DNA of 64,000 bases from Acidobacteria bacterium 13_1_20CM_3_53_8. Lineage in GTDB: Bacteria; Acidobacteriota; Blastocatellia; Pyrinomonadales; Pyrinomonadaceae. The stretch lies in contig MNJR01000141.1 of the NCBI GenBank assembly GCA_001920415.1, positions 1 through 64,000 of the forward strand, read 5' to 3'. A program made the position numbers and the translations under genes. Of this stretch, positions 1-32,420 are shown in pieces; position 1 is the first letter of the stretch, and each line of letters begins with the position of its first letter. The notes under the pieces are model-generated. The model was not told the DNA's origin. It made no database searches and saw only the letters and a list, made by a program, of their open reading frames with translations.

Positions 1-336
1 AAGCATCCCCTCCCGAATGTTGTTGCCGCATTCAAAGACTATCAGGAGGGGATGCTTGCGCGACAGAACAGAAAGCGTATTAAGCAAGAGATGAAGCAAG
101 AGGAAGCACTGCAAAGGCTAAAAGGAAAGAGATTTGATGAGCTTGTTACTTTGGTAAATACCCTGCTCACGTCGGAGCATAAGCACCTTAATGCGCCTAT
201 TAGATTCGCACGAACGCGGGTTATATCCGTAACTATCAAAATCAAAGACAAGACCGAAGCGGAAATATCTTCACAGGACAAGTTTGACTATACACGGCGC
301 AGACGCAAGATTGCGCTTGACGATGAAGAGTTTTAA
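1..336 (+). CDS. Hypothetical protein, 3' part only
   Basis: The reading frame is open from the first base of the window, so the true start lies upstream; the Met at base 52 is only an internal candidate. The visible 111 residues are highly charged, rich in Lys, Arg and Glu, with a probable helical segment over the first half and an acidic C-terminus ending LDDEEF. No catalytic motif or signal sequence is visible and I do not recognise the family. It lies on the outer side of the broken recombinase gene and may belong to the same mobile region. Confidence 0.45.
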   Translation, partial: KHPLPNVVAAFKDYQEGMLARQNRKRIKQEMKQEEALQRLKGKRFDELVTLVNTLLTSEHKHLNAPIRFARTRVISVTIKIKDKTEAEISSQDKFDYTRRRRKIALDDEEF

Positions 337-350
337 GGAAATACCAACTC

Positions 351-386
351 AAAATTACATCACTACCCAAAATTACATCACTACCC
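351..386. repeat. Perfect 18-bp tandem direct repeat
   Basis: Two head-to-tail copies of AAAATTACATCACTACCC, at 351-368 and 369-386, sit between the stop of the upstream gene and the truncated end of the recombinase gene. The position suggests replication slippage or the edge of a past rearrangement that removed the recombinase 3' end. Confidence 0.8.
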
Positions 387-389
387 TAA

Positions 390-1305
390 TTAGAGGGTGC
401 GGGGGTTCGAGTGAGGCTGGATGATATACTGGTCTAAGCCATCTGTTCCCAGCATAGTTCTCCTCTCATGATCCAACTCAAGATAATCATCAATGGCCTG
501 CTTAACGTCAGGTGGCAGCGGCCACACCTCCTCCCTGCCCCGCTTTACTTTGAGCCTAAGAATCCATCGGCCATGACTCCACTTAATATATGATAGGCGG
601 GTGGTACACGCTTTCGTGACCCGCAAGCTCAACCGCAGCATTATAGCGGTTCTCACTTGGGTGCGACCACTCTGATCAAGGCATGCAGGTCAGTCCCGCC
701 TGCGGTAGCGGGCGGGTATCGGTGCGGCTACGACCCGCCCGCTACCGCAGGCGGTACTGACATGAGTCGCATTCAAGTGAGAACCGCTATAAAAGCATCA
801 GCGCATGATCACGAGCGCCCTCCGGAGTTGAACGGTTCGGTCCGCTCAAAAGGTAACGCACTTCTTTCGGCGTGAGAGCTCGCCCTGCTGGCGTGTCGGG
901 CGTTGGCGGCGTCGGGACAAGCCGCGTCGAGGCCGGATTGCATTCTAAATGTCCATCGGCAATCAAATAGTCATAAAAGCTTCGCAGGATAGAGAGCTTT
1001 AAGGCGACTGTATTAGCACTCTTCTTGTTATTGATTAAGTGGTCTCGGTAAGCGATCACATGCTGTGATGTTACCTGCGTTGGGTTCATGTGTTTAACGA
1101 AGACGAAAAAGCTCTTGATAGCTATGCTGTAAGTTTGCCTCGTCGCTACAGAGATCGATTTAAAAATAAAAGTGTCCGCCAAACTGAGATCAAATTTTCT
1201 TTGGTCTTCAGTCTGTTCTGGACTCTGAAGTTCGATATCGTCACAAATCTGAGGGGTTGCAAGATCATTTCCGGCAAGCGCTGGTGGCATAGGCCTTTGT
1301 ATCAA
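390..1305 (-). pseudogene. Tyrosine recombinase (XerC/D type), split by a MITE and truncated
   Basis: The N-terminal half (1305 to about 790) has the SAM-like DNA-binding fold of phage-type integrases, with ATRQTYSIAIKSFFVF and NTVALKLSILRSFYDYL. It is cut off just after GARDHALMLL by a stop created by the inserted 146-bp element. The frame resumes on the other side with MLRLSLRVTKAC and the beta-strand region around WILRLKVKRGRE. Removing the element plus one TA rejoins the halves in frame (codons CTT TTA ATG CTG). The protein then ends at QPHSNPRTL, before the His-x-x-Arg and Tyr catalytic motifs, so the gene is dead even without the insertion. The likely start is TTG 1305 behind AAAGGA, or ATG 1290. 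It marks the edge of an accessory island. Confidence 0.85.
644..789. mobile_element. 146-bp MITE, copy 1, inserted in the recombinase gene
   Basis: The element begins TAGCGGTTCTCACTTG and ends with the inverse CAAGTGAGAACCGCTA, is flanked by TA on both sides (642-643 and 790-791), and has an inner palindrome around CCGCCTGCGGTAGCGGGCGG, so almost the whole unit can fold as one hairpin. A second copy at 32526-32671 differs by one visible base. No transposase is encoded; TA target duplication suggests mobilisation by an IS630/Tc1-mariner-type enzyme elsewhere (inference). The clean in-frame reconstruction of the host gene supports the boundaries. Confidence 0.9.
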
Positions 1306-1774
1306 GGTCCTTTCTCTGAAATTCGCACGGTCTTATACAACTGGGATTCAACTTGTAAGTGCAGAAGTTCTTTGATTGAAGAATACCTCATCCTGTATCC
1401 GAACGCCGAGCATCTCGTCCAAGCGCTGGAGGTGGGTTTAAGTCTCAAGCTACCCGAAGTTGACAAAAGATACTTTTATTACTTCGTCTGCTTCTATTGC
1501 GCGTAAGTAGCTTTTGCTCTCCGATACGTTACGTCCGGCAATCCGGAAAGTATCCGGCAAACCGACCTCGTATCGAACTGAATTCCCGTAAAACAGCGGT
1601 TCTGCTAAGCCATTCCCGTGGCACACGACATGCACTGTGTAAGAGCGCGAGTAGTTGAAATAGGTTGGAGTTGAGATAGCTAAAACAGGCCCAGCCTAAA
1701 ACCAGAGTAAGTCAGCGGGTGAACTTTAGTCGCCCGGTGCTTGAAACCCTTAACAGGTATGAAAGGAGAAAGTC
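1306..1774. other. Stretch with no convincing gene
   Basis: Short frames exist on both strands here (1090-1506 on +, 1450-1635 on -), but none has a recognisable motif, a good ribosome site or a plausible composition, and the first overlaps the recombinase antisense. The only clear signal is the AGGAG at 1764-1768 that serves the next gene. It probably contains decayed mobile DNA and the promoter of the small secreted protein gene. Confidence 0.4.
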
Positions 1775-2107
1775 ATGGTGAAGAGGATATTTGGTATAGC
1801 GTTGATGCCTTTTGTGATCGCGTGCGCATTAGGTGGTGCAGTAATCGGTAACGATTTCCAACGCGGAATCGAGATGCAGGGGTGCTGCGATACAGCGCTG
1901 GGTTCTACGGTGCGAGGTGATCTTCTAGATGAGGTGCTGGATTCGAGCAACATCATCGTAAGCCACTTTCCAAAGAATCAGCTTTTGGAAGAAAACCTCC
2001 CAGTAACATCGCTGCCACAGAAAGAGTTGCTAGAAGATCAGGTGGCGCTGTTAGATTCGTCAAACTTCGTAGGTGGTCTCGATCTGCAAGATAAGCTGGT
2101 GCTTTGA
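1775..2107 (+). CDS. Small predicted secreted or membrane-anchored acidic protein
   Basis: 110 residues. AGGAG lies 6 nt before the ATG, which supports real translation. Residues 1-25 (MVKRIFGIALMPFVIACALG) look like a signal peptide, with a Cys at position 17 that could be a weak lipobox. The rest is acidic and Leu-rich, with a loosely repeated motif LL-D/E-E/D followed by SSN (DLLDEVLDSSN, QLLEENL, ELLEDQVALLDSSN). Adjacent cysteines occur at GCCD. I recognise no family. It lies on the same strand upstream of the kinase-CHAT operon with a 364-nt gap, so it may be an extracytoplasmic partner, ligand or substrate of that system; this is only a positional argument. It could instead be an unrelated island gene. 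Confidence 0.55.
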   Translation: MVKRIFGIALMPFVIACALGGAVIGNDFQRGIEMQGCCDTALGSTVRGDLLDEVLDSSNIIVSHFPKNQLLEENLPVTSLPQKELLEDQVALLDSSNFVGGLDLQDKLVL

Positions 2108-2155
2108 GCTGGAGCTACAAGAGTAGTTAGCTCTTTGAGACAACCGAGTAACCTT

Positions 2156-2281
2156 GTGAATCAAGGGCAGAGATTTAGCATCTAGAATCAGCGGTACAGT
2201 TCTCCGATTGGCTAGCAAGCCACTTTGTTCCTCTGTAAGCGCTGCATCTGCGACACAGCTAATTCTCTGCCCTTGATTCGC
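2156..2281. repeat. 24-bp inverted repeat with 78-nt spacer, upstream of the kinase operon
   Basis: The arm GTGAATCAAGGGCAGAGATT (2156 onward) returns as its reverse complement ending at 2281; 22 of 24 positions match. The gap between the small protein gene and the kinase (2108-2471) otherwise shows no gene with good support, though one + frame ends in a Cys/Arg-rich tail (YSPECKRRQ) just before the kinase. The repeat may be a small mobile unit, or a long-range hairpin in the leader of the operon. Confidence 0.6.
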
Positions 2282-2471
2282 ACTGCTGTCGTCTGAGAGT
2301 CGCCGCACGCTTTCTTCGCCTCTGACGCCAGCCCGCCTGAGACATGTACCGAGAAAAGTCAGGACATGGGCGACCTTGATTCAGCGAGGGGCAGCCAAGC
2401 GGAAAGCCCATAGGGTACGGAAGTTTTACAGTCCAGAATGCAAACGGCGACAGGAGGTATAGCTTAACTCC

Positions 2472-5400
2472 ATGAACTTCATTCAGATGGTTCAAGATTT
2501 TTTCAGATTCCTCGTTGCACATGAATCGGCGACACACCTGTTGACGGCTATCATGTCGCTCTCATTCGCGCTCGTGATTTTCTTGGTGCTGCGCCGCTTC
2601 AATGTCTCGCAAAACGACGCATGGGCTAAGCCCTTTGCATGGGCTTTTGTCGTTCTTGCCGCGCTGCATTCGCTCCCGCTCTTATTAGTGCTGCTCAAAC
2701 AACTCGGAATAACATCGCCCTACACGTCCTACGTGTTTTACCTTGTCGCCGCCGCCGGTTCGAGTCTGTCCAATTACCTTTTTTTTCTGGTCGGCATCAG
2801 CTTAGGATTATTTCGCCTCAAAGCTGCCGCTACCAAACACATCAAATACACAGCCCTCGTACTCCTGTTTATCGCAGCTCTTATCTCGACAATTGGAGAT
2901 ATAAAGATTGAGCAACTTCAGATAGTAGGCCATTGGTGGTCGTGGGCGCGCATTCCAGATGTTTTATTCTCAACGTCGGCTTTATTGTTTGTAGGGTGGG
3001 TGCTGTATAGCAATGTAAGTTCACGTCGTGCTCCTCGCATGGCATTATTGGCGCAGATAACGCTGGCGGCAGCAGTGGCCTACGCGGCTCTTTTCATCTT
3101 GTACGGTGCCCACCCCTTGATGGCTCAGGCGGGGTGGGCCGATTGGTTGGTCACCGGTCAGCCAAAGCTAAGTGAGAAAATCTGGGCGATGGACGCGGCC
3201 GTCATGTCTCTATCGCTTCCCTTGAAATTCGGCTATTTCTTCCCCGCCTTAACCCTGATGTTGATGATCGCCGATCCAGCCGAGGGGATCAGGCGGCTGC
3301 TGAAAAATGTTACCCACGGCGAGGCCGAGTTTTTGGATAACAACGGTGTGACCCGCTCAATACAGGAGGAGATCAAAGCCGACCGGGTTGAACTCTACAT
3401 AAAACTGCCGGGCACGGAGAGAGACAAGGTCGCCTATTACTGCTACTCACGCAAGAACGGAGAGGTCGGACAACCGGAAGAGATTCAGTTTGATAAGGAC
3501 ACGGTCTACGGCTGGGTTATGAGCGGTCCCAACAGAGTCTTGCTGTTTCGCCTGATTAACTACGCAGACAGCGTACCTGACCACTTAAGACAACGATTGT
3601 CCCCGCGCTCGTCCGTCATTGCCGTGCCTATCCTTTTCCACAATGCGGTCATCGGCTGCCTGAAGGCGAACATTGGCAAGGAGAATGGCGCTGAGGACGA
3701 GAAATCCGCTGAGAAGAATGTGGCTGAGGATGAGAAATTCGCCGAGGCGGACTTGCAGAATATACACAGGTTCGCAGCCCTGCTCTCGCCCATTAGTCAG
3801 GATCATCGCAAGGGGGAGGCATCGAAAGAGATCAGCCATCGCCTGACTAAGTTACAGGTCGAAGCCCGCGATTATGACATCGATAGAGACATCGGGAATG
3901 TAGCGCATATCGCCCAAGACATCCTCGCCCCGCTAGCAACCGGGATTTCAATCAAAGCCGGATTTCGCCACTACGAGGAGTACTTCCCCAAAGACTCACC
4001 CTACCGCGCGATGATGGAGAGGCAGATGAATTCCCCCGACTCAACAACAGTCTCCGCAGGTGGTCGTAAAAGTCCAGACTTTCTGCTCAAAGAGCTGAAA
4101 GTTGCTTCGGGTGAACTGACAGGCAAGTCAGATGGCGAACACCCTCTAGGCAAGCTCGTGTTGGCGGCTCATCCCACTGTGAAAAGAACCAAACTGCCAG
4201 CGTCAGCCCTCGTCTCGAAGCTGATTTACAGCCGGGATGTGTCGAATTTAATCACGGACGCCTTGCTCAACTTCATTCGCGGGTCGCTCAACGAGACCAC
4301 GAGAGAGCTAAACATACGCATGAGTCGCTTGGGCGCGACGAAAGCGCCTGCGGGGGCTGAGCAGGCGGTTGAGGTGGAGCGACAGGATAACGTGCCCACA
4401 TGGTTCGAGACGATAGATGAAATGGCGAGGAAGGTCGGCTTCCTGTGGACTGTGGCGAAGTATTCAAACCACCACGAGTGGCTCGGCAGTGAGATAGAAC
4501 TAGTGAAAGAGTTGGAAGGCAGGAAAAACCTCTGGCAGGATAAAGGTAAAGTTGAGAAAGAAGGGCAGACACACAACATTTACGAAGATTATGCGCCTAA
4601 CATTGATATTGCGCTCTGCACTATCAAGCAGCCCGAGAGGGAGACATCTCACGTCATCAGGATTTCTTTACGCGAAAGCGAACAAGTGGTGTGGCTAGGC
4701 GTGGGCAACCCTGTTTTCGAGTTGGAATTTGATTACCTTTCCCCATGGCTGGGATTCATTCTGCGATTCGGGGATATCGCGCACACCAGCCTGAAGCAAA
4801 ACTTGAGCAAGCAGAAGCAAGAGAAATTTGAGAAAGAGGCAGCGGAGGCTATCGGGATCGCCACCGTCTGGGTGATGACCAACACCTTCGTCCACCAGAT
4901 GGTAAACCAGGTGCGGGACCTGACCAGCCCCCTGACCATGCTGGAGGATGCGGTCAAACGCGGCAGGTTGAAAGGTAACGAGAATCACAGGAAGATAATT
5001 CTCGGTATGGGCGAGGCTGTCTCCCAGATCGAAGGGCTGATGAAGCTTTTCTCCAAAGAGACGAAGCCCGATGACCGGCGACCCTGTTCGTTAGATGAGG
5101 CCTATCAGTACGCCTTTGACCTCCTGCGGGCCGCGCTAGCGAGGTATAACATCAATGTCACCACAGACAACCTTGACGGGCAAGTCGTTGATGTTCCTTT
5201 CTACGTGGCGGCCTACGCTCTAGCCAACCTGCTCAATAATGCCAGGGACGCCATCAGGGACGGGAAGGTGAAACACGGGCTGATAGAAGTCAGGGCCGAA
5301 GAGACGCAGACAATGATCCTATGCCACGTTACCGACAACGGTCTCGGCGTGCCTCCCGACTTCACAACACCGTTTGAATCAGGCGGGAAAAGTAGCAAAG

Positions 5401-5537
5401 CTCATGGCAGCGGATTGGGACTCTACCTATCAGCACACTCGTTACGGGAGAACCGGGGCGACATAAAACTCACCAGTCGCGGTCCGACCCCCCCTACCAC
5501 ATTTACGCTCTGTTTTCCCAAACAGAGAAAAGATTAA
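2472..5537 (+). CDS. Membrane sensor histidine kinase of the CHAT-linked operon
   Basis: 1021 residues, far longer than a common kinase. Residues 1-270 contain about seven hydrophobic helices without a clear extracytoplasmic loop domain. A GAF-like segment follows (about 285-440, including SSVIAVPILFHNAVIGCLKA), then a 350-residue region of unknown fold. The catalytic core is at the C-terminus: a DHp-like helix with candidate phospho-acceptor His808 (NTFVHQMVNQVRD), N-box at about 920 (NLLNNARDAI), G1 DNGLGVP at about 955 and G2 GSGLGLYL at about 980. The H-box is divergent from the classical HELRTPL. The only in-frame ATG is at 2472; AGGAGG is 14 nt upstream, longer than usual. First of four co-directional genes; 64 nt separate it from the receiver gene. 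Autophosphorylation and relay to the next gene are inferred. Confidence 0.85.
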   Translation: MNFIQMVQDFFRFLVAHESATHLLTAIMSLSFALVIFLVLRRFNVSQNDAWAKPFAWAFVVLAALHSLPLLLVLLKQLGITSPYTSYVFYLVAAAGSSLSNYLFFLVGISLGLFRLKAAATKHIKYTALVLLFIAALISTIGDIKIEQLQIVGHWWSWARIPDVLFSTSALLFVGWVLYSNVSSRRAPRMALLAQITLAAAVAYAALFILYGAHPLMAQAGWADWLVTGQPKLSEKIWAMDAAVMSLSLPLKFGYFFPALTLMLMIADPAEGIRRLLKNVTHGEAEFLDNNGVTRSIQEEIKADRVELYIKLPGTERDKVAYYCYSRKNGEVGQPEEIQFDKDTVYGWVMSGPNRVLLFRLINYADSVPDHLRQRLSPRSSVIAVPILFHNAVIGCLKANIGKENGAEDEKSAEKNVAEDEKFAEADLQNIHRFAALLSPISQDHRKGEASKEISHRLTKLQVEARDYDIDRDIGNVAHIAQDILAPLATGISIKAGFRHYEEYFPKDSPYRAMMERQMNSPDSTTVSAGGRKSPDFLLKELKVASGELTGKSDGEHPLGKLVLAAHPTVKRTKLPASALVSKLIYSRDVSNLITDALLNFIRGSLNETTRELNIRMSRLGATKAPAGAEQAVEVERQDNVPTWFETIDEMARKVGFLWTVAKYSNHHEWLGSEIELVKELEGRKNLWQDKGKVEKEGQTHNIYEDYAPNIDIALCTIKQPERETSHVIRISLRESEQVVWLGVGNPVFELEFDYLSPWLGFILRFGDIAHTSLKQNLSKQKQEKFEKEAAEAIGIATVWVMTNTFVHQMVNQVRDLTSPLTMLEDAVKRGRLKGNENHRKIILGMGEAVSQIEGLMKLFSKETKPDDRRPCSLDEAYQYAFDLLRAALARYNINVTTDNLDGQVVDVPFYVAAYALANLLNNARDAIRDGKVKHGLIEVRAEETQTMILCHVTDNGLGVPPDFTTPFESGGKSSKAHGSGLGLYLSAHSLRENRGDIKLTSRGPTPPTTFTLCFPKQRKD

Positions 5538-5601
5538 GCCAACATTATATAGCACTGCCAAGCCACAATCGCGCGACGGCGGTGTAAAAGGAGTAACTAT
5601 C

Positions 5602-7284
5602 ATGGCAAGGAAGAAAGTGCTAATCGTCGAAGACAAGGAGCGACTAAGAATATCACTATACGAGCTACTAGATGCGCGCGGCTTTGAAGTCTACAGCGCG
5701 GGTCGCGTCGCCGAAGCTCGTAAACTGGTTGAGGAGCATGGGGAAGAGTTCGACGTAGCCGTACTGGACATGAGACTAGAAGACCCTGATGAGCCGAATA
5801 TTACTGGGGCCGACATCGGCATCGAGTTTCGTTACAAGAAAAAAGGTTATCCGCCCGAATTCCTCATCTATTCTGCTCATCCCGAGGTTGATTATTATCG
5901 CTTGGCTTTGAAGCTCGGCGTGGCGGCTTATCTGGCGAAACAGGTAGAGAACGAAATTGATGTGGTCCGGCACGTGAAGGTGCTGGCCTTGCGCCACGCG
6001 TTGAGCAGCGAAAATCCTGTGACTGCCGACCGGGTCGCCCGGATAGCGGCGCAGAGCCATAGCCGCTTCGAAGCAATCGTGAAGTTTTGCCATAACATAC
6101 TCAAACCAGAGTTCGAGTCCTGCCTTGGAGCGCCGTTCATCATTTTGCTCAGCGAAGGGAATAGTACGCAGAACTGCAGCGATAATGCCGACCTGCCTCA
6201 AGCGAGCAACCCGTTCTACCACACGCTCCAGGCTTTGGCGCACGGTAAGGGCAGCCCTATCGAACCTTTCGTCCTCAAGAGGAGCGAGTTGGAAGCGCCG
6301 ACAGACGCGGAAGCCGCGAAGCTGTATGAAAAGTTGAACGGGGCTGCCTTCGTCCCGCTTTCCATCTCCCGAGACTTCAGGCTCTCAATCGGCATCCTAC
6401 AGGAGCAAGAAAGCGAGAAGACGCCCGTGCCGGAGGACGCTAAGGCCCTCTGCAAAATTCTGGCGCAGTATCTCCGCCCGACCGTCCTTGAGAATTTGCT
6501 TCACATCTGGCCCCGGTGGACCGAGCTAAGGGCTACACGCACTAGCACAGCGAAGCTATGTCTGTTCGTCGGGCAAGAGTTGAAGGATATGCTCCCCGCT
6601 GAGGAAACCGGTGGGTCATTAGCTGAAGATTCGCTCTGGCGCATGCGGAATCTGGCGAACGACCTAGTTGACACGGGCGAACTGCTGAACGATCTGCAAA
6701 ACAGGCGCTGGGATGAAAAAAGTAGTCCTGTTTCTATCAAAGAGATCGCCGAAACGTCGTGGCGTTGGATAACGCAGGCCGAAGAGGTGCCCGGTAAGAG
6801 TTTCGAGATAGTGGGAGACTGCACCGTCGAAGCGGATAGAAGAGATTTAGAGATAGCAGTTTCTCGCCTGTTGCACTGGCTAGCGCAACGGCGCGCGGCG
6901 ACGCCTTTTGATGAAGAGCCGCTAGTCTCACTTCAATGCCGGAAAGATGAGGACGGACCAATAATTGTCTTTGAGGATAAAAGTCAGCGTCTCAATAAAG
7001 AGCTACGCGCCAACATGTTCGCACCGTTCACACAGGCCGTCCAGGTTCCCTTCACGTCTGAGGCCGAGTCATTAGAGTCGAAGGGGCACGCATCGGAGGC
7101 TGCGGCAGAAAATGTGGGACGCAAGCGCGCAGGCCGCTACCTTCCGCTATACCTGGCTAAAGTGCTAGTTGAAGGGCGGTATCACGGCACTCTGGAGGAT
7201 CACTCCGACGATGAAGATTTGAAGGAACTGACATACAGGCACCGAATCGTGATGCGATTCCCGCCAAGCAGGAACAAAGATTGA
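5602..7284 (+). CDS. Response regulator: receiver fused to GAF-like region and degenerate kinase core
   Basis: 560 residues. The receiver (1-135) keeps the acidic pair E10/D11, phospho-acceptor D56 in VAVLDMRLED, S91 and K113 in YLAKQ, so it should be phosphorylatable. The middle (about 150-300) resembles a GAF fold. Residues 320-555 follow the order of a HisKA/HATPase core but lack the catalytic boxes: the N-box position reads AVSRLLHWLAQ without Asn, G1 becomes VFEDKSQ, and the G2 lid lacks GxGLG (RYLPLYLAKVLVEG). It is probably a non-catalytic kinase-like scaffold that binds the partner kinase. No DNA-binding domain is present, so output must be by protein contact. Its stop codon overlaps the TTG start of the CHAT gene. 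Confidence 0.8.
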   Translation: MARKKVLIVEDKERLRISLYELLDARGFEVYSAGRVAEARKLVEEHGEEFDVAVLDMRLEDPDEPNITGADIGIEFRYKKKGYPPEFLIYSAHPEVDYYRLALKLGVAAYLAKQVENEIDVVRHVKVLALRHALSSENPVTADRVARIAAQSHSRFEAIVKFCHNILKPEFESCLGAPFIILLSEGNSTQNCSDNADLPQASNPFYHTLQALAHGKGSPIEPFVLKRSELEAPTDAEAAKLYEKLNGAAFVPLSISRDFRLSIGILQEQESEKTPVPEDAKALCKILAQYLRPTVLENLLHIWPRWTELRATRTSTAKLCLFVGQELKDMLPAEETGGSLAEDSLWRMRNLANDLVDTGELLNDLQNRRWDEKSSPVSIKEIAETSWRWITQAEEVPGKSFEIVGDCTVEADRRDLEIAVSRLLHWLAQRRAATPFDEEPLVSLQCRKDEDGPIIVFEDKSQRLNKELRANMFAPFTQAVQVPFTSEAESLESKGHASEAAAENVGRKRAGRYLPLYLAKVLVEGRYHGTLEDHSDDEDLKELTYRHRIVMRFPPSRNKD

Positions 7285-8957
7285 AGAGTTCGAAAGCTCA
7301 GATGTCCGGAAGAGTTCGCATGATCTTACCAGATGTGGCACAGCTCTTGATCTATGGGCAGCGAGGTGTCTGTATGCGGGTTGATGTCATCGTCATGGCC
7401 GAGAAAAACACCCAGCTTGTTATGAGTTGGACGTTGCGACCTAACCGCAAAGGCGAGTTGCGCGCCGTGTGTCATAACGGCTCCAGTCAATCGCCTGAAA
7501 AGTCATGGAAAGACCTTGCACTTAAAATTAACCGCCGCGCGCTGAGAGGCAACCACGCTCCCGTAGAAATCTTTCTGTACTTGCGTGATGGTCTGCGTAG
7601 TAGCATCTATGATTATGGCATCTTGGAAGATATCGTCTTAAGTGCGCTGGAGCATGCGTGGGCCGGGAAGCTGTACGTTGTATGGGATAGACTCCCCGCT
7701 ACTGCGCTGGAGGCGGGCTTCGGTGAAGAACAGGAACAGATACTGCTCGCCAAGTGTTTCTGCGCCTTCCTCTGCGGGAGAGTTACAGACCTGATCGAGC
7801 TTAATCACAGAGAAAAACCGCGTGGAAGATTAACTTGTGAGGAGGAGAGACAACTCCTTCGCGGTTGCGCCGCTAAATCACAGAGGCGTTGGGAGATACT
7901 TCAAGGCGTCGCTAGTGAAGGCGGGTGGGGTTATATCGCGCGCAAGAATGCGCGGATACTGGGAAGCTTCTTGAGCGAGCTTGTCAGCGAGGGCTGTCTG
8001 CTCTCTTCCGGCACCAATCATGTCATCATTCTCGATGCCGCTCCCGAGTTTGGCCCCAAGGAGTTATTAGACGAATTCAGAAGAGTCAACCGGGTTAACA
8101 ATGGCATCGTCGCGGCGACGCCTGAAGGTTACTCAAAAGATTTATGCTATCAATGCCGCGGCGAATCTCCGCTCCTGGAGGTGCTGACTTTCAACGGAGT
8201 GTTCGAAGTCGTTTATGCGCTGCTTCAATTGAACACTGTGAGAAAAGTCGAGACTCGTCAGGAACATCTCAAAGCTGACACTCAGGTGGAGATTAAAGAC
8301 GTCAAATTAATTAGGAGCCCGGTTTTTCATCCACCTGCTGCGCAGTCTTCCCCACGGCTGTTGATTACTAGCGCCTTTCATCCCAACGAGGAGCCGGAAC
8401 ATAGTATTGCTGCCGCCCACGAAGTCGGGGCGATGCTCCGCGGGCTGCCCTTCCACCTTGACGTGGTAGTTCACCCGTGCATTACCTGTGAGTCCCTGCC
8501 CAATCTGCTAGAATCCGGGGAGTTCACGGCTTGGATTCACCTCAGTCATGGCGAGAAAGAGGAAGGGCTATACGAGCCGCAACTTAAAGAGTATGCCTCG
8601 CCCCAGAGGTGGCTCACTTGCTTCACGGCTTATAAAAGCAGCTTGAAGTTAGCCGTGTTCTCCTCTTGCGAATCGGCCTGCGTGGCTAGATTGTTCGCCG
8701 AGGCTGGCGTTAGTGTCGCTGTCGGGTTTGAGAGCGTAGTGCTCGTGCAGGCGACCCGACTCCTGGCACAGAAAGTTATCCGCGCAGCCATGTTGGATGG
8801 AAGCGGCCAGGAGTCAATCCTCGAAGCCTTCCGCGATGCCTGCGATAGTCTGGCGGCGAGGACCTATGCCGAGGGTGGCAATGATGTGAGCTACAACGCC
8901 GCCCGCCCAATAGCATTTCGCTCTACCGAAGTAGCATTTCGCTTTACCGGAAAATGA
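7281..8957 (+). CDS. CHAT-domain protease (caspase-like)
   Basis: 558 residues from a TTG start that overlaps the previous stop (TTGA); ATG 7302 is the alternative. The N-terminal 330 residues have no motif I recognise. The C-terminal 210 residues form a CHAT domain: catalytic His423 in WIHLSHGEKEEG after a hydrophobic strand, and catalytic Cys463 in AVFSSCESACVARLF, followed by the helix VSVAVGFESVVLVQATRL and AFRDACDSLAA. Both residues of the dyad are intact, so protease activity is likely. CHAT proteases are known as effectors or processors in conflict and cell-death systems, for example TPR-CHAT with type III-E CRISPR or with bacterial gasdermins. Here the partners are two-component proteins rather than CRISPR or gasdermin genes. 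The substrate is unknown; neighbours are the first candidates. Confidence 0.85.
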   Translation: MKSSKAQMSGRVRMILPDVAQLLIYGQRGVCMRVDVIVMAEKNTQLVMSWTLRPNRKGELRAVCHNGSSQSPEKSWKDLALKINRRALRGNHAPVEIFLYLRDGLRSSIYDYGILEDIVLSALEHAWAGKLYVVWDRLPATALEAGFGEEQEQILLAKCFCAFLCGRVTDLIELNHREKPRGRLTCEEERQLLRGCAAKSQRRWEILQGVASEGGWGYIARKNARILGSFLSELVSEGCLLSSGTNHVIILDAAPEFGPKELLDEFRRVNRVNNGIVAATPEGYSKDLCYQCRGESPLLEVLTFNGVFEVVYALLQLNTVRKVETRQEHLKADTQVEIKDVKLIRSPVFHPPAAQSSPRLLITSAFHPNEEPEHSIAAAHEVGAMLRGLPFHLDVVVHPCITCESLPNLLESGEFTAWIHLSHGEKEEGLYEPQLKEYASPQRWLTCFTAYKSSLKLAVFSSCESACVARLFAEAGVSVAVGFESVVLVQATRLLAQKVIRAAMLDGSGQESILEAFRDACDSLAARTYAEGGNDVSYNAARPIAFRSTEVAFRFTGK

Positions 8958-8958
8958 T

Positions 8959-10338
8959 ATGACCATCGCGCTTTTCGCTTACGATCAGTCCCTTTCAAAA
9001 GAGGTCGCAGCTTTTCTGCTCGACGAAGGGGTCGAGGCGCGCTCTTTCGCCCTGAATACAGCGGCACAAGTTCGCGAGATTGATGATGCCTGTCACAAGG
9101 GGGTTTTGATCTTCCGTGAACACGGAGCGGGCGAAACGACGGGAATCGTCAAAAAATTGCTCGGCGACAAAAGAGACTTGATTCTCTGCGCTAAGCTGCC
9201 GGATGCCGAGAATCGTCAGCTACTGATAGAAGAGGGGGCCTCGGAAATTATCACCCCGCGCTCGTGGGAAGCCGAACATGTGGCTGAACGAATTCTGGCC
9301 CAGTTGATTTTGGACGGCGAGGTGCAACCCGATTCGTGTGGAAAGATGCTCGGGGCGACTGCCGTCATGCGCCGGGTCTACGAACTGATTGCGATGTATG
9401 CCCGCGTCTCCGACCCGGTGCTCATCCTCGGTGAGACGGGGACGGGCAAAGATTTAGTCGCCGAGGAAATTCACAGGTTAAGCGTGGGAAAGCGCGGACG
9501 ACAGGATAAGCTCATGGCTCTTAATTGCAGCACGCTGAGGCCTGATCTTTCGGGGAGTGAACTATTCGGGCACACGAAAGGCTCCTTCACGGGAGCCATA
9601 GCTGTCCGCCAAGGTATAATCGCGGCCGCGGGTCACGGAACTCTTTTTCTTGACGAGTTCGGAGAGTTGGATTTACAGGTGCAAGCGGACTTGCTGAAGG
9701 TGTTAGACCACAACGAGGTCAAGCCCGTCGGCTCAAATGATCCTGTCAAAGTCCACGCGAGAATCGTGCTGGCAACCAACCGCAAGCTCAAAAAGGAGTA
9801 CGAGGAGGGAAGATTCCGCCAAGACCTCTTCCGGCGGATTAGAGGCTTCAGCATAGAGTTGCCGCCCCTGCGCGAGCGCCGCGCCGACATTCCATTGCTG
9901 GCGCGATATTTCCTCTCCGAGTGGAATGAGGAGAGTGACACAAGCTTACAGATACCGGGCGGGGCCTTTGATTGCTTATTCAAAGACGACTGGGCGGAAG
10001 GTAATCTAGGCGACCTTCGCTCCGCCGTGCGGAAAGCCGCCACCTACGCCGATAGCATCGGCTCCGAGTACGTTTACCCTTTGACGGAAACGAATGAGCT
10101 TGGGCACAAGCTGACCCAGCCGACATCCCCTAGCGTGCCGACCGGTAAGGGATTCACTATCACCTGCGATCCGAGCACTGAGAAGTGGGAAGAGTTCATC
10201 AAGCGTGTTCGGCCGCTCTACTTCAAATCACTTCTTGAGGTGACAGGAGGAGACAAGAAGAAAGCTCGTATTCTCTCCGGGCGCCACCACACACAGTTTT
10301 ACGAGTACATGAAAGAGCTTGATTCGAGCGATGAATAA
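8959..10338 (+). CDS. Sigma-54-dependent activator with degenerate receiver
   Basis: 459 residues, starting one base after the CHAT stop, so translation is probably coupled. Residues 1-120 have receiver-like alternation, but the phospho-acceptor position reads GVLIFREHGAG with no Asp and the conserved Lys site reads IITPRS, so phosphorylation is unlikely. The AAA+ domain is complete: Walker A GETGTGKD (about 158), sigma-54 contact loop GSFTGA (about 208; Ser replaces the usual Ala), Walker B TLFLDEFGELD, and arginine-finger region FRQDLFRRIRG. The C-terminus (KKKARILSGRHHTQFYEYMK) fits a Fis-type helix-turn-helix. Last gene of the operon; it is likely the transcriptional output. Activation by contact or cleavage rather than phosphate is an inference. 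Confidence 0.88.
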   Translation: MTIALFAYDQSLSKEVAAFLLDEGVEARSFALNTAAQVREIDDACHKGVLIFREHGAGETTGIVKKLLGDKRDLILCAKLPDAENRQLLIEEGASEIITPRSWEAEHVAERILAQLILDGEVQPDSCGKMLGATAVMRRVYELIAMYARVSDPVLILGETGTGKDLVAEEIHRLSVGKRGRQDKLMALNCSTLRPDLSGSELFGHTKGSFTGAIAVRQGIIAAAGHGTLFLDEFGELDLQVQADLLKVLDHNEVKPVGSNDPVKVHARIVLATNRKLKKEYEEGRFRQDLFRRIRGFSIELPPLRERRADIPLLARYFLSEWNEESDTSLQIPGGAFDCLFKDDWAEGNLGDLRSAVRKAATYADSIGSEYVYPLTETNELGHKLTQPTSPSVPTGKGFTITCDPSTEKWEEFIKRVRPLYFKSLLEVTGGDKKKARILSGRHHTQFYEYMKELDSSDE

Positions 10339-10341
10339 AGC

Positions 10342-10605
10342 CACATCGCCATTACGAGCGGGATAGATTCCGGTGTAGATGATTTCATGCGGCGAAGCAG
10401 ACGCCGCGTGGACAGTGATGGGAAGACCATAAAGATCTGCCATTCCCATGAGCTTCGTGCCTTTACCCCATTTCGTGGCACCCACAGTGTAAACCCCTTT
10501 TTAGTCATGACGAACGTCCCGTCGCTGAAGCATTCTGAAAGATTAATATCCCCGCGTTCTTCTGAGCCATGGGTTCTATTAAAAAGACTTTTCAGCCCTG
10601 CAAAA
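10342..10605 (-). pseudogene. IS5-type transposase remnant
   Basis: Reading the minus strand gives GDINLSECFSDGTFVMTKKG in one frame and then, after a +1-type slip, VGATKWGKGTKLMGMADLYG followed by LPITVHAASASPHEIIYTG in another. This order (catalytic Asp segment, KxGKGTKxM, SASPHE) is typical of the DDE domain of IS5-family transposases. Stops upstream and loss of homology downstream show it is a fragment. It sits directly after the CHAT operon and marks the right edge of the island. The terminal repeats of the IS are not visible. Confidence 0.75.
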
Positions 10606-10861
10606 TAGTGTTATTCTAATTTCGGGAAATGATTCCTTTCAGTACCTCTCATTTAAGGTTTACCGTCAATGAAGCGAGCACTTCTCAGCATACTTTTGCA
10701 AATCCGACTCCAGTAGCTATTAAAAATCAGAGGCGAACGAATCAAATACCCGGAATGTTCAAAAACGCGAAAGATGCAAATACCCTCGGGTGAACGATTC
10801 GGATGCCACTGAGGCACTGACGCCTGACGAACAATCATAACCATACGGCAGTTTGAAGATG

Positions 10862-10891
10862 ATGCCCGGCGTTCTAGTGCCGGGCATTTTT
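10862..10891 (+). terminator. Rho-independent terminator without an obvious gene
   Basis: A 9-bp perfect stem (ATGCCCGGC / GCCGGGCAT) with an 8-nt loop is followed by TTTTCTTCC on the + strand. The nearest + gene ends 500 nt upstream, and the gap 10606-11131 has no convincing ORF. It may end a small RNA from 10620-10860 or be left from lost genes. Confidence 0.75.
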
Positions 10892-11131
10892 CTTCCTGTT
10901 AAATTCTTCTGATCCAATGCGTAGATGACCTCATCTCGAAGCCAATGCCACATTCCGCAATGCTGAATCTGTTGAGACACACGTGCAAGCCTTCAAATTT
11001 GTTCTAACACTTAAATTAATTCGCTGTGAAACGTCTGCATCGTGCGACAAGTTCCCGATGAAAGACAAGCTGATTACGCTCCGGTTGAATGAGTTGTTAT
11101 GCGCGGCATTGTATGCACCTCATCTCCCGCC

Positions 11132-11482
11132 TCAACTGAAGAATCTGTCTTTAATCTTCAACAAAATAGCAAAGAGTAGATAAAGACTGCCGATGGTTAG
11201 AGGAAATATACCCCAAATGAACACCTCCATATCCGTCGAGTGATAGCGCCCGCCGCCCTTCGCCCATATTAATTTCCCTGGAGGGTAATACCTGAAGAAG
11301 CCCATCGCCCCAACGAAGATGATAGTTAGACTGACCATCAGATGTGCGCCTGTGTCGAATGAACTGCGTTTCGAGCGCGCTTCGATCTTGGCACCGCATC
11401 CTTCGCAGACAGAAGCGTCGGGGGGATTGTACATACCGCAAGCTGTGCAGACTGTCTGGTTCGACGGAAGAATAGAGTTCAT
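11132..11482 (-). CDS. Zinc-ribbon membrane protein
   Basis: 116 residues. GAGGTG lies about 8 nt before the ATG. The N-terminus has a zinc ribbon with two CxxC pairs (VCTACGMYNPPDASVCEGCG, residues 11-30), followed by two hydrophobic segments (about 48-65 and 88-108) separated by a basic loop, and a basic C-terminus. This is a common small architecture of unknown role; the ribbon would be cytoplasmic. It is monocistronic and divergent from the PilS-like kinase. Confidence 0.75.
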   Translation of the reverse strand: MNSILPSNQTVCTACGMYNPPDASVCEGCGAKIEARSKRSSFDTGAHLMVSLTIIFVGAMGFFRYYPPGKLIWAKGGGRYHSTDMEVFIWGIFPLTIGSLYLLFAILLKIKDRFFS

Positions 11483-11812
11483 AAGAGCACCTCACTGGTG
11501 TTAGAAGCGCATAACTATATATTAGGCGAACTAAAAGGCTTGTTATATCACGTCAATTTAGATGCATAGCACTGATGTGGCAGCTTAGTCTAAAACGCTT
11601 TCTAAAGACTACCCGGTGAGAACGCCGGGACTCTATCCTCTGGCTTGATTAGTGTCAAGATGTTTTCGCTCCTCTAAACATATCGGACAATCATCTCGTT
11701 TATATACTTAATGCCGCCACTGAAAGAACAAATTAACCCTTAATCTCATTTCAGTTTTCTGCTGAAAGAAATACTGCGCGCAACGCCAATCTCGTGGTAC
11801 GCTTTTAGAGTA
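11483..11812. other. Divergent intergenic region before the pilS-like gene
   Basis: 330 nt between the zinc-ribbon gene and the kinase. It is AT-richer than its surroundings and must hold both promoters. A small CCCGG/CCGGG stem lies at 11612-11629. I see no small ORF, repeat or canonical -24/-12 element here. Confidence 0.4.
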
Positions 11813-13459
11813 ATGAAGCGAGATGGTGCGGCAGGTCAAAGCGGCGCGCTGGACGTTAAGCTGTGGTGGCTTATCGTTGGTAGAGCCGCAGTCTCTGTTT
11901 TGCTGCTCGTTGCGAGCGCGCTATGGACTGGCGAGTGGAGCAAGACTGCCGGGCGCGGCGCGCTCTATATCTTCGCAACGGTTGTTGCGCTCACGATTCT
12001 GTACGCTCTGGCGCTGCGCTTTCTCTCGCGCCTGCTCCTACAGGCTGGCATACAACTCTTCGCAGATATAATGTTGGTGACGTGGCTGGTCTGGATCACG
12101 TCTGATGTTTACTCTCCGAACAAAGCGCTCTACATAATAATCATTTCGGTTGCAAGCATATTGCTTGGCCCGCGCGGAGCACTCCTGACAGCGCTCGGCT
12201 GCGTCATAGCCTTTACGGCACTCACGCTCTCTGCGACCTTCGGCCTTGTGCCACATTATGGAATCGCGCCGTTTGAAATTTCCACTGTGAAATCAATTCA
12301 GGCGATAGGCTTTGATGACGTTGCTTTCCTGGTCGTTGGCCTTCTAGCAGCCCGTCTGGCCGAGCGACAGTCGCGCTCTGACGTGCAGTTGATTGCCGCA
12401 ACTCAATCGCTCGCTAATCTGCGTGCGCTGCACGAGCGCATCGTAGAATCAATTCGCTCCGGCGTTGTAACAACAGACTTGCAGGGTCGCATCTACACCT
12501 TCAACGCGGCTGCCGAAGAGATTACAGGCTACCGCGCCGAAGATGTTCGTGGACAAGAGGCTTCTATCTTCTTCGGCGAATTGAAGGAGCATACGGAAGA
12601 ATCTTTGCGCGCAGCAGAAGCCGGTGAAGCAAGCCCGCGATTCGAGGCAGACTGTTTGACTTCCGACGGGCTGCGCCTTCGCTTAGGGTTCACAATCTTT
12701 CCGCTCTCGCTTGAATCGGGCGAGACCACAGGATTCGTAATTACATTCCAGGACTTGACTCAAGTGCGCTCGCTCGAAGAGACTTCGCGCCGACAGGATC
12801 GTCTGGCCGCCGTGGGTCGCGTTGCCGCTAGCATCGCGCATGAGATTAGAAACCCGCTCGCTGCTATGCGCGGCTCTATTCAAGTTCTGCGTTCAGAAGT
12901 TGACGGCAAATCGTCTCAGGCCGAATTGATGGACATAATCTTGCGCGAGTCAGACCGCTTGAATCGCATCATCACGGACTATCTGTCTTACGCTCGCCCG
13001 CGCTCGCGCATGCTCTCAAGCGTTGACCTGCGCGAACTTCTTACTGAAACATTCACACTTTTGCGACACAGCCCTGAGATTCGTGACGGACACACGCTGG
13101 AAGAGAATCTTCCAGAAGAGCCTGTGATGACGGACGCAGACGCAGAGCAGTTGAAGCAGGTCTTCTGGAATCTGGCACGAAACGCTCTTCAGGCTATGCC
13201 GGAAGGAGGCGCGCTTCGAGTTGAGCTGGAGCGCGCGCCGTCTGGCCGTTCGCGCATAGTTTTTACGGACACAGGACGCGGCATGTCGCCCGTGCAGGTC
13301 GAGCGCCTTTTTGAGCCATTCTCTTCGACCACGGGCGGCACAGGATTGGGTCTGTCAATTGTCTATCAAATCGTACGCGAACATGGTGGTACAATAAACG
13401 TTCGCAGCCGTGAGGGTCAGGGCACAACCATTACGATTGAATTGCCGGGAGAGCGTTGA
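11813..13459 (+). CDS. pilS: PilS-like sensor histidine kinase
   Basis: 548 residues. Residues 17-190 hold about six membrane helices with short loops, as in PilS. A PAS domain follows (about 205-320, IVESIRSGVVTTDLQGRIYT), then HisKA with the H-box SIAHEIRNPLAAMRG (His about 343) and an HATPase with NLARNALQAM, DTGRGM and GTGLGLSIV. All catalytic boxes are intact. It is followed by a Uma2 gene and then a PilR-like regulator, and pilin genes lie 5 kb downstream. This supports control of pilin transcription. The symbol rests on architecture and context. Confidence 0.85.
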   Translation: MKRDGAAGQSGALDVKLWWLIVGRAAVSVLLLVASALWTGEWSKTAGRGALYIFATVVALTILYALALRFLSRLLLQAGIQLFADIMLVTWLVWITSDVYSPNKALYIIIISVASILLGPRGALLTALGCVIAFTALTLSATFGLVPHYGIAPFEISTVKSIQAIGFDDVAFLVVGLLAARLAERQSRSDVQLIAATQSLANLRALHERIVESIRSGVVTTDLQGRIYTFNAAAEEITGYRAEDVRGQEASIFFGELKEHTEESLRAAEAGEASPRFEADCLTSDGLRLRLGFTIFPLSLESGETTGFVITFQDLTQVRSLEETSRRQDRLAAVGRVAASIAHEIRNPLAAMRGSIQVLRSEVDGKSSQAELMDIILRESDRLNRIITDYLSYARPRSRMLSSVDLRELLTETFTLLRHSPEIRDGHTLEENLPEEPVMTDADAEQLKQVFWNLARNALQAMPEGGALRVELERAPSGRSRIVFTDTGRGMSPVQVERLFEPFSSTTGGTGLGLSIVYQIVREHGGTINVRSREGQGTTITIELPGER

Positions 13460-13532
13460 TTGTTAATAAGTAGAATTGCTGATTCTGATATTCACCCTAA
13501 GATTTAATCGGTTGTTCTGAAGGATTAGCGCC

Positions 13533-14105
13533 ATGTCAACACTTCCAAGCTACTATTTAAGTCCAGACGAATATTTAGCCATTGAGCGCAAGGCCGAATT
13601 TAAGAGCGAGTACGTTGACGGCGTAATGTACGCAATGGCTGGCGGCAGCGAGCGCCATAATCTGATCGCAGGCAACATGCCCACTGCGCTAAACAATCAA
13701 CTCCGAGAAGTCGCTTGCAGAGTGTATCCAAGTGATCTGAAAATTCGTATGCCGAATTCAAGAAGATTCTTCTACCCGGATGTTTCTGTTGTTTGCGGCG
13801 AGACTCAATTTGCCGATGAAGAGAGAGACGTTATTCTCAATCCCATCCTTATCGTCGAAGTATTGTCCGAGAGCACGGCGGCTTTCGACCGAGGCAAGAA
13901 GTTTCAATCGTACCAGCAGATCGAAGCCTTGCAAGAATACTTGTTGGTTTCTCAGGATGAATTTGTGGTAGAGCATTTTCTTAGACAGGAAGATCAGCAC
14001 TGGCTTTATACGAAAGTGAGCGGACCGGATTCATCCATGGTTCTGCCAACGTTAAGATGTGAATTAACTTTGAGCGATATTTATAATAAAGTGACATGGC
14101 AATGA
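13533..14105 (+). CDS. Uma2-family (DUF820) endonuclease-like protein
   Basis: 190 residues with the usual Uma2 order: LSPDEYLAIERKAEFKSEY, DGVMYAMAGGSERHNLIAGN, the catalytic-type strand FYPDVSVVCG with the PD residues, and LIVEVLSESTAAFDRGKKF with E-x-L-S. These correspond to the PD-(D/E)xK nuclease fold core, so it may cut DNA, but the cellular role of the family is unsettled. Uma2 genes are multi-copy and mobile in cyanobacteria and acidobacteria. It interrupts the pilS-pilR pair; a second family member is at 47.8 kb. Confidence 0.85.
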   Translation: MSTLPSYYLSPDEYLAIERKAEFKSEYVDGVMYAMAGGSERHNLIAGNMPTALNNQLREVACRVYPSDLKIRMPNSRRFFYPDVSVVCGETQFADEERDVILNPILIVEVLSESTAAFDRGKKFQSYQQIEALQEYLLVSQDEFVVEHFLRQEDQHWLYTKVSGPDSSMVLPTLRCELTLSDIYNKVTWQ

Positions 14106-14151
14106 TTGAGTAATCGAAGAAAATATTAAATGACTTTTCCCTTTTACAATT

Positions 14152-15657
14152 ATGTCTAACCTTCTAATCGTTGACGACGAACCAAGCATGCGACAGCTTC
14201 TGACGCTCGTGTTCGGGCGCGAGGGTCATAGCGTGCGTGCTTCGGAAAACGGAAGACAGGCGCTTGCGGCTCTGCGCGTCGAGCCTGCTGATTTGATTGT
14301 GTCGGACGTGAAGATGCCTGACATGGACGGCATTTCGCTGCTTCGTGCTGCGCGTGATGTGCAGCCGGATGTGGCCGTCATAATGATGACCGCGTTCGCA
14401 ACTGTAGAGACTGCGCGCGAGGCTTTCAAGCTGGGCGCAGACGATTTTATACAGAAACCTTTCGATGTTGAAGAGTTGAAATTGATAGTTGCCAAAGCGC
14501 TCGAACGCCAGGCGCTCGTCAAAGAGAATCGCGCGTTTCGGCGTGCTCAGCGCGAACGTGGCTCACTCGGAAATATCATAGGTCGTTCTGACCGTATGCA
14601 GGCCGTCTATCAAATGATTGAGACTGTGGCGGAGGTTCAATCAACCGTGCTGGTCACGGGCGATTCGGGCACAGGGAAAGAGTTGGTCGCGCGTGCTATT
14701 CATGATCTTAGCCCGCGCGCCGAAAAACCTTTCATCTCTGTAAACTGCGGCGCGTTCACAGAGACGCTGTTGGAATCGGAACTCTTCGGCTACACGAAAG
14801 GGTCATTCACGGGCGCGACCGCTAATCGCAAAGGACTGTTCGAGGCTGCTAACAAAGGCACTATCTTTCTGGACGAGATTGGCGAGATGTCGCCAGCTAT
14901 GCAGGTGAAGTTGCTGCGCGTGCTTCAGGAGCGAAAGGTTAGACCCGTTGGCGCGCACGATGAAGCCGAAGTTGACACACGCGTTATCGCTGCAACGAAC
15001 CGCGACCTCGCCGCTATGGTCAAGGACGGAACTTTCCGCGAAGACCTCTTCTACCGCATCTCTGTCATTCCGATTGAATTGCCGCCCTTGCGCGACCGGC
15101 GCGAAGACATAGCAGACCTCGTGCAGCATTTCATACGAAAGTACGGCGAGCAGACCGGGCGTGTTCTGGGCATCAGCGAAAAAGCTTTGCAGCTTTTGGA
15201 AAACTATTCGTGGCAGGGCAACGTGCGCGAACTTGAGAACACAATCGAGCGCGCTGTTGCGCTCGAACGCACGGACGAGATTCAACCCGAAAGATTGCCG
15301 GAGCACATAACCAACTACGACCCCGGGCGAGTCGCAGAAGCTTTCGACCTGCCAGATGGCGGCATTAACCTGACGGCTTTCCTTGACCAGTTGGAGAAGA
15401 CTTACGTCATGGAAGCTTTGCGGCGCTCGGGCGGCAACCAGACGCAGGCCGCAGAGCTACTCGAACTCTCCGTGCGCTCCTTGCGCCACCTTCTGGACAA
15501 GCACGGCATACGCAGCCTCTCGGCGCACATGCGCGACGAGAAACGCACCACCGATTCCCCGCCCCGCCGCCGTGCAACCGATCCCTTCCCACGACGCCGC
15601 GCCGAAGATGAGTCAGGTATGGCCGCAAGCGCTGGCGATGATTCCTCTACGGGCTGA
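14152..15657 (+). CDS. pilR: PilR-like sigma-54 response regulator
   Basis: 501 residues. Receiver (1-120) with D51 in LIVSDVKMPDMDG and the Lys in FIQKPF; AAA+ with Walker A GDSGTGKE, contact loop GSFTGA, Walker B TIFLDEIGEMS and FREDLFYRIS; C-terminal Fis-type helix-turn-helix (GGNQTQAAELLELSVRSLRH). After the HTH there is an unusual 40-residue tail with two related Pro-Arg-Arg-Arg-Ala motifs (PPRRRATDP, FPRRRAEDE). The likely partner is the PilS-like kinase 700 nt upstream; likely targets include the sigma-54-like site before the first pilin gene. Confidence 0.87.
   Translation: MSNLLIVDDEPSMRQLLTLVFGREGHSVRASENGRQALAALRVEPADLIVSDVKMPDMDGISLLRAARDVQPDVAVIMMTAFATVETAREAFKLGADDFIQKPFDVEELKLIVAKALERQALVKENRAFRRAQRERGSLGNIIGRSDRMQAVYQMIETVAEVQSTVLVTGDSGTGKELVARAIHDLSPRAEKPFISVNCGAFTETLLESELFGYTKGSFTGATANRKGLFEAANKGTIFLDEIGEMSPAMQVKLLRVLQERKVRPVGAHDEAEVDTRVIAATNRDLAAMVKDGTFREDLFYRISVIPIELPPLRDRREDIADLVQHFIRKYGEQTGRVLGISEKALQLLENYSWQGNVRELENTIERAVALERTDEIQPERLPEHITNYDPGRVAEAFDLPDGGINLTAFLDQLEKTYVMEALRRSGGNQTQAAELLELSVRSLRHLLDKHGIRSLSAHMRDEKRTTDSPPRRRATDPFPRRRAEDESGMAASAGDDSSTG

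Positions 15658-31028: not shown

Positions 31029-32420
<1,392 letters not shown>

Follow-up and report, generated by a model that had tools for sequence, protein, structure and literature searches.

Genes and recurrence of the cassette

The window, that is, the whole stretch of DNA analysed here, comprises 64,000 nucleotides (nts) of Acidobacteria bacterium 13_1_20CM_3_53_8 (family Pyrinomonadaceae) and forms the initial 64 kb of the 90,635-base contig MNJR01000141.1, in a genome of 6.1 Mb and 155 contigs. Near its start lies a cassette of four genes encoding a histidine kinase (HK), a response regulator (RR), a CHAT-like cysteine protease and a sigma-54 activator. Their combination suggests that signalling here runs through a protease, in a circuit of which no description was found. 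A first-pass annotation, made from the letters alone, had placed four co-directional genes here; four long open reading frames (ORFs) on the same strand are indeed present, with Pfam domains in the HK, the RR and the activator. The features of the cassette are the following:

2472..5537, plus strand: HK, a membrane protein of 1021 amino acids (aa)
4893-4895, plus strand: codon of HK His808, in an invariant HQxxN motif
5217-5525, plus strand: HATPase domain of the HK (Pfam, 3.3e-12)
5602..7284, plus strand: RR, 560 aa, combining an intact receiver with a C-terminal, degenerate kinase catalytic half
5617-5952, plus strand: receiver of the RR, with Asp56 (Pfam, 4.3e-11)
7374..8957, plus strand: CHAT-like cysteine protease, 527 aa from ATG 7374 (the ORF opens at TTG 7281)
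8547-8549 and 8667-8669, plus strand: His and Cys codons of the CHAT dyad (His423 and Cys463, numbered from the TTG start)
8959..10338, plus strand: sigma-54 activator, 459 aa, with a GSFTGA loop (Sigma54_activat, Pfam, 3.9e-53)
8959-9330, plus strand: N-terminal domain of the activator, weakly TrkA-N-like
9349-9855, plus strand: AAA+ core of the activator

In the window, 64 nts separate the HK and RR genes, and the 1-nt gap between the CHAT and activator genes is as first annotated. The overlap of 4 nts reported between the RR and CHAT genes is doubtful, because it depends on the TTG start at 7281. From the sequence, ATG 7374 is the likelier start, since three of the four other CHAT homologues have a Met in the column of window Met32, the fourth starting three codons earlier, and since GAGGTG is located 5 nts upstream; with this start, a gap of 89 nts is left. 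Across the loci described below, intergenic distances range from -86 to 97 nts with the starts used.

The recurrence of the cassette was followed in a phylum sample of 396 Acidobacteriota genomes and a class sample of 162 Blastocatellia genomes. The CHAT gene was found in 4 of the 396 by protein search, and in the same four by a profile built from a five-row alignment, while a profile search of the class returned five of the 162 genomes, spread over three families; the additional one, G484, had no match in the phylum draws. The loci are thus that of the window (genome G000), L005 (G259), L006 (G051), L007 (G307, labelled as of the window's family) and L014 (G484). HK, RR and CHAT genes follow one another in this order on the same strand in all five, so a chance assembly of these three genes, which the first-pass annotation had envisaged should CHAT homologues never be linked with their partners, is rejected. 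The activator gene lies 3′ of the CHAT gene in four loci, L006 being the exception. The gene order was not seen to recur in distant taxa: the five loci come from three families of a single class, to which the cassette is limited so far. Plasmids gave no tblastn match to the CHAT protein, an RR part, an HK part or the L006 CHAT protein, and viral contigs gave none to the CHAT protein or to the CHAT and RR alignments. Wider genome contigs were scanned with two degenerate peptide patterns, which confirmed 1 of 117 candidate stretches and are too limited to show absence outside the class.

Pairwise identities between loci are 27-34.5% for the HK, 28-43% for the RR, 25-34% for the CHAT protein and 40-53% for the activator; this strong divergence argues that the linkage is old. 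In the phylum sample, the RR region behind the receiver matches at E <= 4e-177 in exactly the four CHAT genomes. At E <= 0.001 it matches in 63 genomes, the next best (2.1e-8) covering profile positions 209-366 of 422. The activator N-terminus matches at E <= 6e-54 in three genomes, which are the three sampled genomes whose cassette holds the activator, and weakly in eight further ones, for a total of 11 with any match. Because the strong matches coincide in the same genomes, the RR, the CHAT protein and the activator N-terminus act as parts of one system in this sample. Judging from the gene content of L006, which has no activator gene, the activator is dispensable for the core of the cassette.

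Beyond the features first annotated, the comparison revealed a metallophosphoesterase gene in three of the five loci, a weak TrkA-N likeness of the activator N-terminus and pilus-type neighbours in two species, the latter two being treated below. The metallophosphoesterase (calcineurin-like, 446-471 aa, 38-43.5% identity between loci) opens the operon in L005, L007 and L014; Pfam Metallophos matches it in L005 (6.4e-8) and L007 (4.4e-9), and the L014 gene was assigned by alignment. No such gene is found in window positions 1-12500 (best E 0.93). Across the window's genome, the metallophosphoesterase has one distant match (E 2.5e-5), which adjoins another CHAT-like gene. On contig C16 of that genome, a gene for a 400-aa protein with CHAT/C25-like motifs (Peptidase_C25 0.026, below cut-off) stands directly 5′ of the gene for a 463-aa metallophosphoesterase (L023, 8654-11248 for the pair), so that genes of these two kinds are paired a second time, away from the kinase cassette. 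In L006, a trypsin-like/Nal1-type gene (3607-4587) lies 534 nts upstream of the HK gene; its matches to Nal1_C (1.8e-4) and Trypsin_2 (0.024) are both below cut-off.

Properties of the encoded proteins

In the HK of the window, the first five hydrophobic stretches all precede residue 215, and a weaker sixth spans 381-399. Residues N923, D955/G957/G959 and G981/G983 of the N, G1 and G2 boxes are identical in all five homologues. His808 of the HQxxN motif is likewise invariant, while Pfam HisKA does not match, and it is the putative phospho-acceptor. The HK of L005 has a GAF domain that passes the cut-off, and that of L006 matches GAF weakly.

The RR was first annotated as a receiver fused to a pseudokinase, and the comparison agrees. 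Receiver residues E10, D11, D56 and K113 are identical in the five proteins, with Ser or Thr at position 91. The C-terminal part aligns with the catalytic half of the partner kinase (hhalign probability 85, E 6.2e-6), and Pfam HATPase_c touches it in four of the five members (best E 1.2e-4). In all five, an invariant Trp426 occupies the N-box position and the glycines of the G1 box are absent. By these residues, the C-terminal half is a conserved dead kinase and hence probably a binding module. A profile of this part searched against the PDB had a ribosomal protein as its best match (0.0013), taken as chance, and the kinase SrrB at 0.88.

The intact dyad first annotated in the protease is upheld, His423 and Cys463 being identical in all five CHAT homologues. 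The Pfam CHAT model does not pass on the window protein (E=0.055, 13.3 bits against a cut-off of 24), reaches 13 bits in L014 and has no match at E <= 10 in L005, L006 and L007. The fold on which the first-pass annotation had staked the protease is nevertheless present in the predicted model, whose pLDDT averages 65 and reaches 77-89 across residues 401-520. The best structural match of residues 353-552 is the SAVED-CHAT protein 8tl0 (Z 19.5, rmsd 3.0, 182 aligned residues); SAVED-CHAT proteins respond to cyclic oligonucleotides. Subsequent matches include C11 peptidases, gingipain, the transmembrane anti-sigma factor DdvA (Z 13.0), the TPR-CHAT protein of Craspase (12.8) and caspases; Z values to CHAT, C11, gingipain and caspase structures lie between 12 and 19.5 over model residues of about 351-552. 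The protein is therefore filed as CHAT-like by its predicted fold and its dyad, not by Pfam, and proteolysis is a predicted activity. A profile of the protein searched against the PDB gave only four saposin-type matches (best E 0.19) and nothing meaningful.

The N-terminal part of the protease shows alpha/beta units in a low-confidence model (mean pLDDT 63). Foldseek extends the match of the whole model to 8tl0 over 511 columns (E 2.7e-8), but with an rmsd of about 21.6. At this confidence, the isolated model lends no support to a reading of this part as SAVED: there is no SAVED protein among the matches listed for it, and its best Z, 7.9, belongs to an isomerase fold of SIS type and is no higher than commonplace alpha/beta arrangements give.

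The AAA+ core of the activator is of an ordinary kind and has ZraR as its nearest PDB relative (E 1.4e-82), and core residues are conserved in the four activators. The GAFTGA-type loop has that exact sequence in two members, whereas it is GSFTGA in the window and GSFTNA in L007; in the window, the Arg of the lid motif NVRELR is lost and one residue is gained beside this motif. The best PADLOC model is RtcR_PspF2 (E 3.7e-77, residues 91-455), of the RtcR-type activators (CARF_AAA_HTH). This match covers the AAA+ core and tail and is not specific, since the receiver-type activator at 31029-32417 scores higher (2.3e-108). The DNA-binding domain of RpoN (Sigma54_DBD) is found in all five genomes.

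A pseudo-receiver at the N-terminus of the activator was considered and dropped, as Pfam gives no match at E <= 10 in any of the four proteins; aligned with the RR receiver, the region has an hhalign probability of 0.2 and is not a detectable receiver. It resembles TrkA-N weakly (E 7.5e-5 to 0.0077 per genome, over parts of residues 23-122). Among the eight weak matches in other genomes, all seven proteins scanned are TrkA_N by Pfam, and the eighth (L089) gave nothing in a frame scan. In the PDB, the best match is KtrC (E 0.0037), while Pfam itself finds no TrkA_N in the activator, and a Gly-rich nucleotide loop is not evident in this N-terminus. RCK/TrkA-N domains bind nucleotides in transport regulators, TrkA-N being a domain of potassium-uptake regulators.

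Sigma-54-like sites were counted against a mononucleotide shuffle: 2 were found for 3.2 in window positions 1-12500, 1 for 6.05 in L005, 1 for 3.4 in L007, 4 for 2.5 in L014 (slightly above) and 8 for 3.55 in L006 (above). One promoter-like site in the window, at 1619-1634, has two mismatches and lies 140 nts before the small ORF at 1775-2107, in a region where the number of sites is not above shuffle. Another, in L006 at 2413-2428, has one mismatch and precedes by 42 nts an ORF at 2471, which we take to be OsmC-like; this locus has no activator.

A proposed circuit and its rivals

Gene order, the ATP site of the HK, the phospho-site of the receiver, the dead kinase half, the protease dyad and the AAA+ core can be read from the sequences, and from them we infer each step that leads from kinase to RR, protease and activator. 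The HK and the RR would together gate the CHAT protease, with transcriptional output usually provided by the sigma-54 activator and with the metallophosphoesterase as a further enzyme in three of the five loci; we give this reading a rough probability of 0.4. A membrane signal sensed by the HK would lead to the phosphorylation of Asp56 of the RR. The pseudokinase of the RR, related to the HK's own catalytic half, would serve as a binding module by which the protease is retained or set free. Once freed, the protease would cut a partner. Its likeliest target would be the N-terminal, TrkA-N-like region of the activator, or else a contact by which the activator is kept inactive, and the cleavage would leave the AAA+ core free to drive sigma-54 promoters.

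Among circuits in which every conserved part has a use, this is the simplest. The RR has no output domain besides the dead kinase half, and the protease gene sits between the RR and activator genes. Direct phosphotransfer to the activator is unlikely, since the activator has no detectable receiver, hence the proposal of a step that involves proteolysis or binding.

Several observations count against this circuit. L006 keeps the HK, RR and CHAT genes without an activator, and the 11 genomes of the 396 that match the activator N-terminus, weakly or strongly, do not include G051, the genome of L006; the protease must therefore have another target there. Given the GSFTGA and GSFTNA loops and the lid Arg lost in the window, sigma-54 activation may be impaired in some members. 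In addition, sigma-54 sites are clearly above shuffle only in L006, the locus without the activator.

With no activator and a trypsin-like gene upstream, L006 indicates that the protease can serve another output, and this keeps alive a death or defence system in which the HK and RR release CHAT as a toxic effector. The role of the activator would then be confined to regulating either the cassette genes or a stress response running in parallel, and the metallophosphoesterase or the trypsin-like enzyme would be a co-effector. Such a system is possible though doubtful. It would suit the patchy spread (5 of 162 genomes, three families) and the strong divergence, the remnants of mobile elements that flank the operon in the window, the trypsin-like gene 534 nts upstream in L006 and the second CHAT-metallophosphoesterase pair in the window's genome; caspase, trypsin and calcineurin-like effectors are also known from conflict systems, as described in the available sections of PMC7159879 and PMC8195603. 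However, when the five window proteins and the L005 metallophosphoesterase were compared with PADLOC-DB 2.0.0, no system model fitted beyond generic domains, namely an RtcR-type AAA+ in the activator and SduA (0.0021) and PDC-M60B (0.042) in the receiver. The lack of matches in plasmids and viral contigs also speaks against it, and reading the ORFs around L005, L006, L007 and L014, without a whole-region profile scan, brought no recognised defence genes.

Pilus-type neighbours raise the question of a surface module, in which the cassette would tune pilus or envelope genes via regulated proteolysis and the neighbourhood would reflect function. Downstream of the window cassette lie a kinase (11813-13459) and then a sigma-54 regulator (14152-15657); in a relative, L076, the counterpart of this kinase comes after genes read as pilus-assembly genes (L075, L077 and L078 were compared by tblastn only). 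In G307, the cassette (L007) adjoins a gene that shares 75% identity with L076's pilC-like gene; the names of pilus genes used here are presumptive. The membrane nature of the HK would also fit. Nevertheless, the orientation is opposite in the two species, the kinase/regulator pair has no match within 406000-425999 of the G307 contig, that is, in the stretch following the cassette, and reading of L005, L006 and L014 finds other neighbours. In the window's genome, the pilC-like gene reaches the end of C94 (53,443 bases), a contig separate from that of the cassette. The presence of pilus-type genes at the cassette border in two species (L007, 6249-9035; window, 11813-15657) may reflect an insertion hotspot or a functional tie, and a shared hotspot explains it equally well. 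We consider the surface module quite unlikely.

The protease might also act upwards, trimming the kinase, the regulator or an unlinked protein, while the activator is controlled separately by a ligand of its TrkA-N-like domain. The presence of this domain on the activator and the L006 cassette without an activator are both compatible with such an arrangement. It is made improbable by the restriction of strong matches to the activator N-terminus to cassette genomes (3 of 396), which argues for a joint function, and by the want of an evident Gly-rich nucleotide loop.

The proposed kinase-RR-protease-activator circuit shares its logic with published systems, in which a signal acts on transcription through a protease. 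Craspase/CASP (Cas7-11, Csx29 TPR-CHAT, Csx30, CASP-sigma) likewise encodes a CHAT protease beside a transcription switch; according to the sections available of PMC10028731, the Csx29 CHAT protease cuts a sigma-factor inhibitor. The CHAT folds of Craspase align with the predicted model of the present protease (7y85, Z 12.8; 8eex, Z 12.3). The input is a CRISPR RNA complex in CASP and an HK/receiver pair here, the output is an ECF sigma factor in CASP and a sigma-54 activator here, and a Pfam scan of the window's CHAT protein finds no TPR. In CalpL/CalpT/CalpS, the same order from signal to protease to sigma release has a cyclic-oligonucleotide input: CalpL responds to cA4 and cuts an anti-sigma factor (PMC11417357, in the part available). 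A SAVED-CHAT protein, 8tl0, is the best structural match of the present protease domain, while the matches listed for the low-confidence model of the N-terminal part alone include no SAVED protein. The conflict systems with VMAP, iSTAND or EACC1-caspase modules also combine caspase-superfamily peptidases with regulatory modules and exchangeable trypsin- or calcineurin-like effectors, but they rest on MoxR-vWA, STAND or membrane adaptors, unlike the HK/RR pair here (PMC7159879, PMC8195603, in the sections available). The same part of PMC7159879 states that histidine kinases were not found among vWA-associated effectors, and no kinase-receiver-CHAT-sigma-54 operon is described in the sections available of either article.

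In the literature, searched mainly among open-licence articles, no description of a kinase-receiver-CHAT-sigma-54 cassette was recognised. As far as the available parts of these sources go, the step from signal through protease to transcription is already published (Csx29, CalpL/T/S), and its HK/RR-linked version was found only here. The CHAT transcription switches found described take CRISPR or cyclic-nucleotide signals; an ordinary sensor kinase as input would, if true, give caspase-like proteases a place in other kinds of bacterial signalling too. It would give a defined job to the receiver-pseudokinase and offer a candidate route for switching on a sigma-54 activator that carries no receiver; five diverged natural versions of the cassette are at hand. 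A narrower form of the circuit, which we regard as unlikely, is a two-component-run, CRISPR-independent switch, where phosphorylation of the receiver-pseudokinase frees the protease to cut the TrkA-N-like N-terminus off the activator and the metallophosphoesterase or trypsin-like enzyme is an exchangeable effector. If so, kinase-to-caspase signalling would have a counterpart in bacteria, and sigma-54 transcription would be controlled in a new way.

Surroundings of the cassette and further CHAT genes

The following features lie around the cassette:

1775..2107, plus strand: small ORF, 110 aa, hydrophobic at its N-terminus; a doubtful member of the cassette
787-1305 and 390-689, minus strand: Xer-type tyrosine recombinase in two pieces; upstream flank, outside the system
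10381..10500, minus strand: IS5 transposase fragment, 40 residues, 43 nts past the activator stop; outside the system
about 11002-11103, plus strand: lone attC-like repeat, about 0.66 kb past the activator; outside the system

The small ORF has no Pfam match, and no relative was found in the eight loci searched (best E 0.67). The two-piece recombinase fits the dead integrase first annotated at this border. The IS5 remnant reported at the other border fits as well: the fragment matches plasmid-borne proteins with a best identity of 65%, and five of the eight among the matches listed are annotated as IS5 transposase; Pfam and NCBIfam do not detect it. In 2-kb blocks, the operon (2001-10000) has a GC content of 0.521-0.550 against 0.486-0.586 across the whole window, and the two remnant-bearing blocks, 1-2000 and 10001-12000, are the lowest of the window (0.487 and 0.486).

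The repeat past the activator, which we label attC-like after the consensus of such repeats, has 45 further matches in the window's genome, many of them in arrays with small ORFs between the repeats (L064, L065, L066). These arrays resemble integron cassette arrays. The same genome holds six other Pfam CHAT matches over the cut-off, two on contig C135 and one each on C119, C100, C2 and C108, and one of the six contains two stops.

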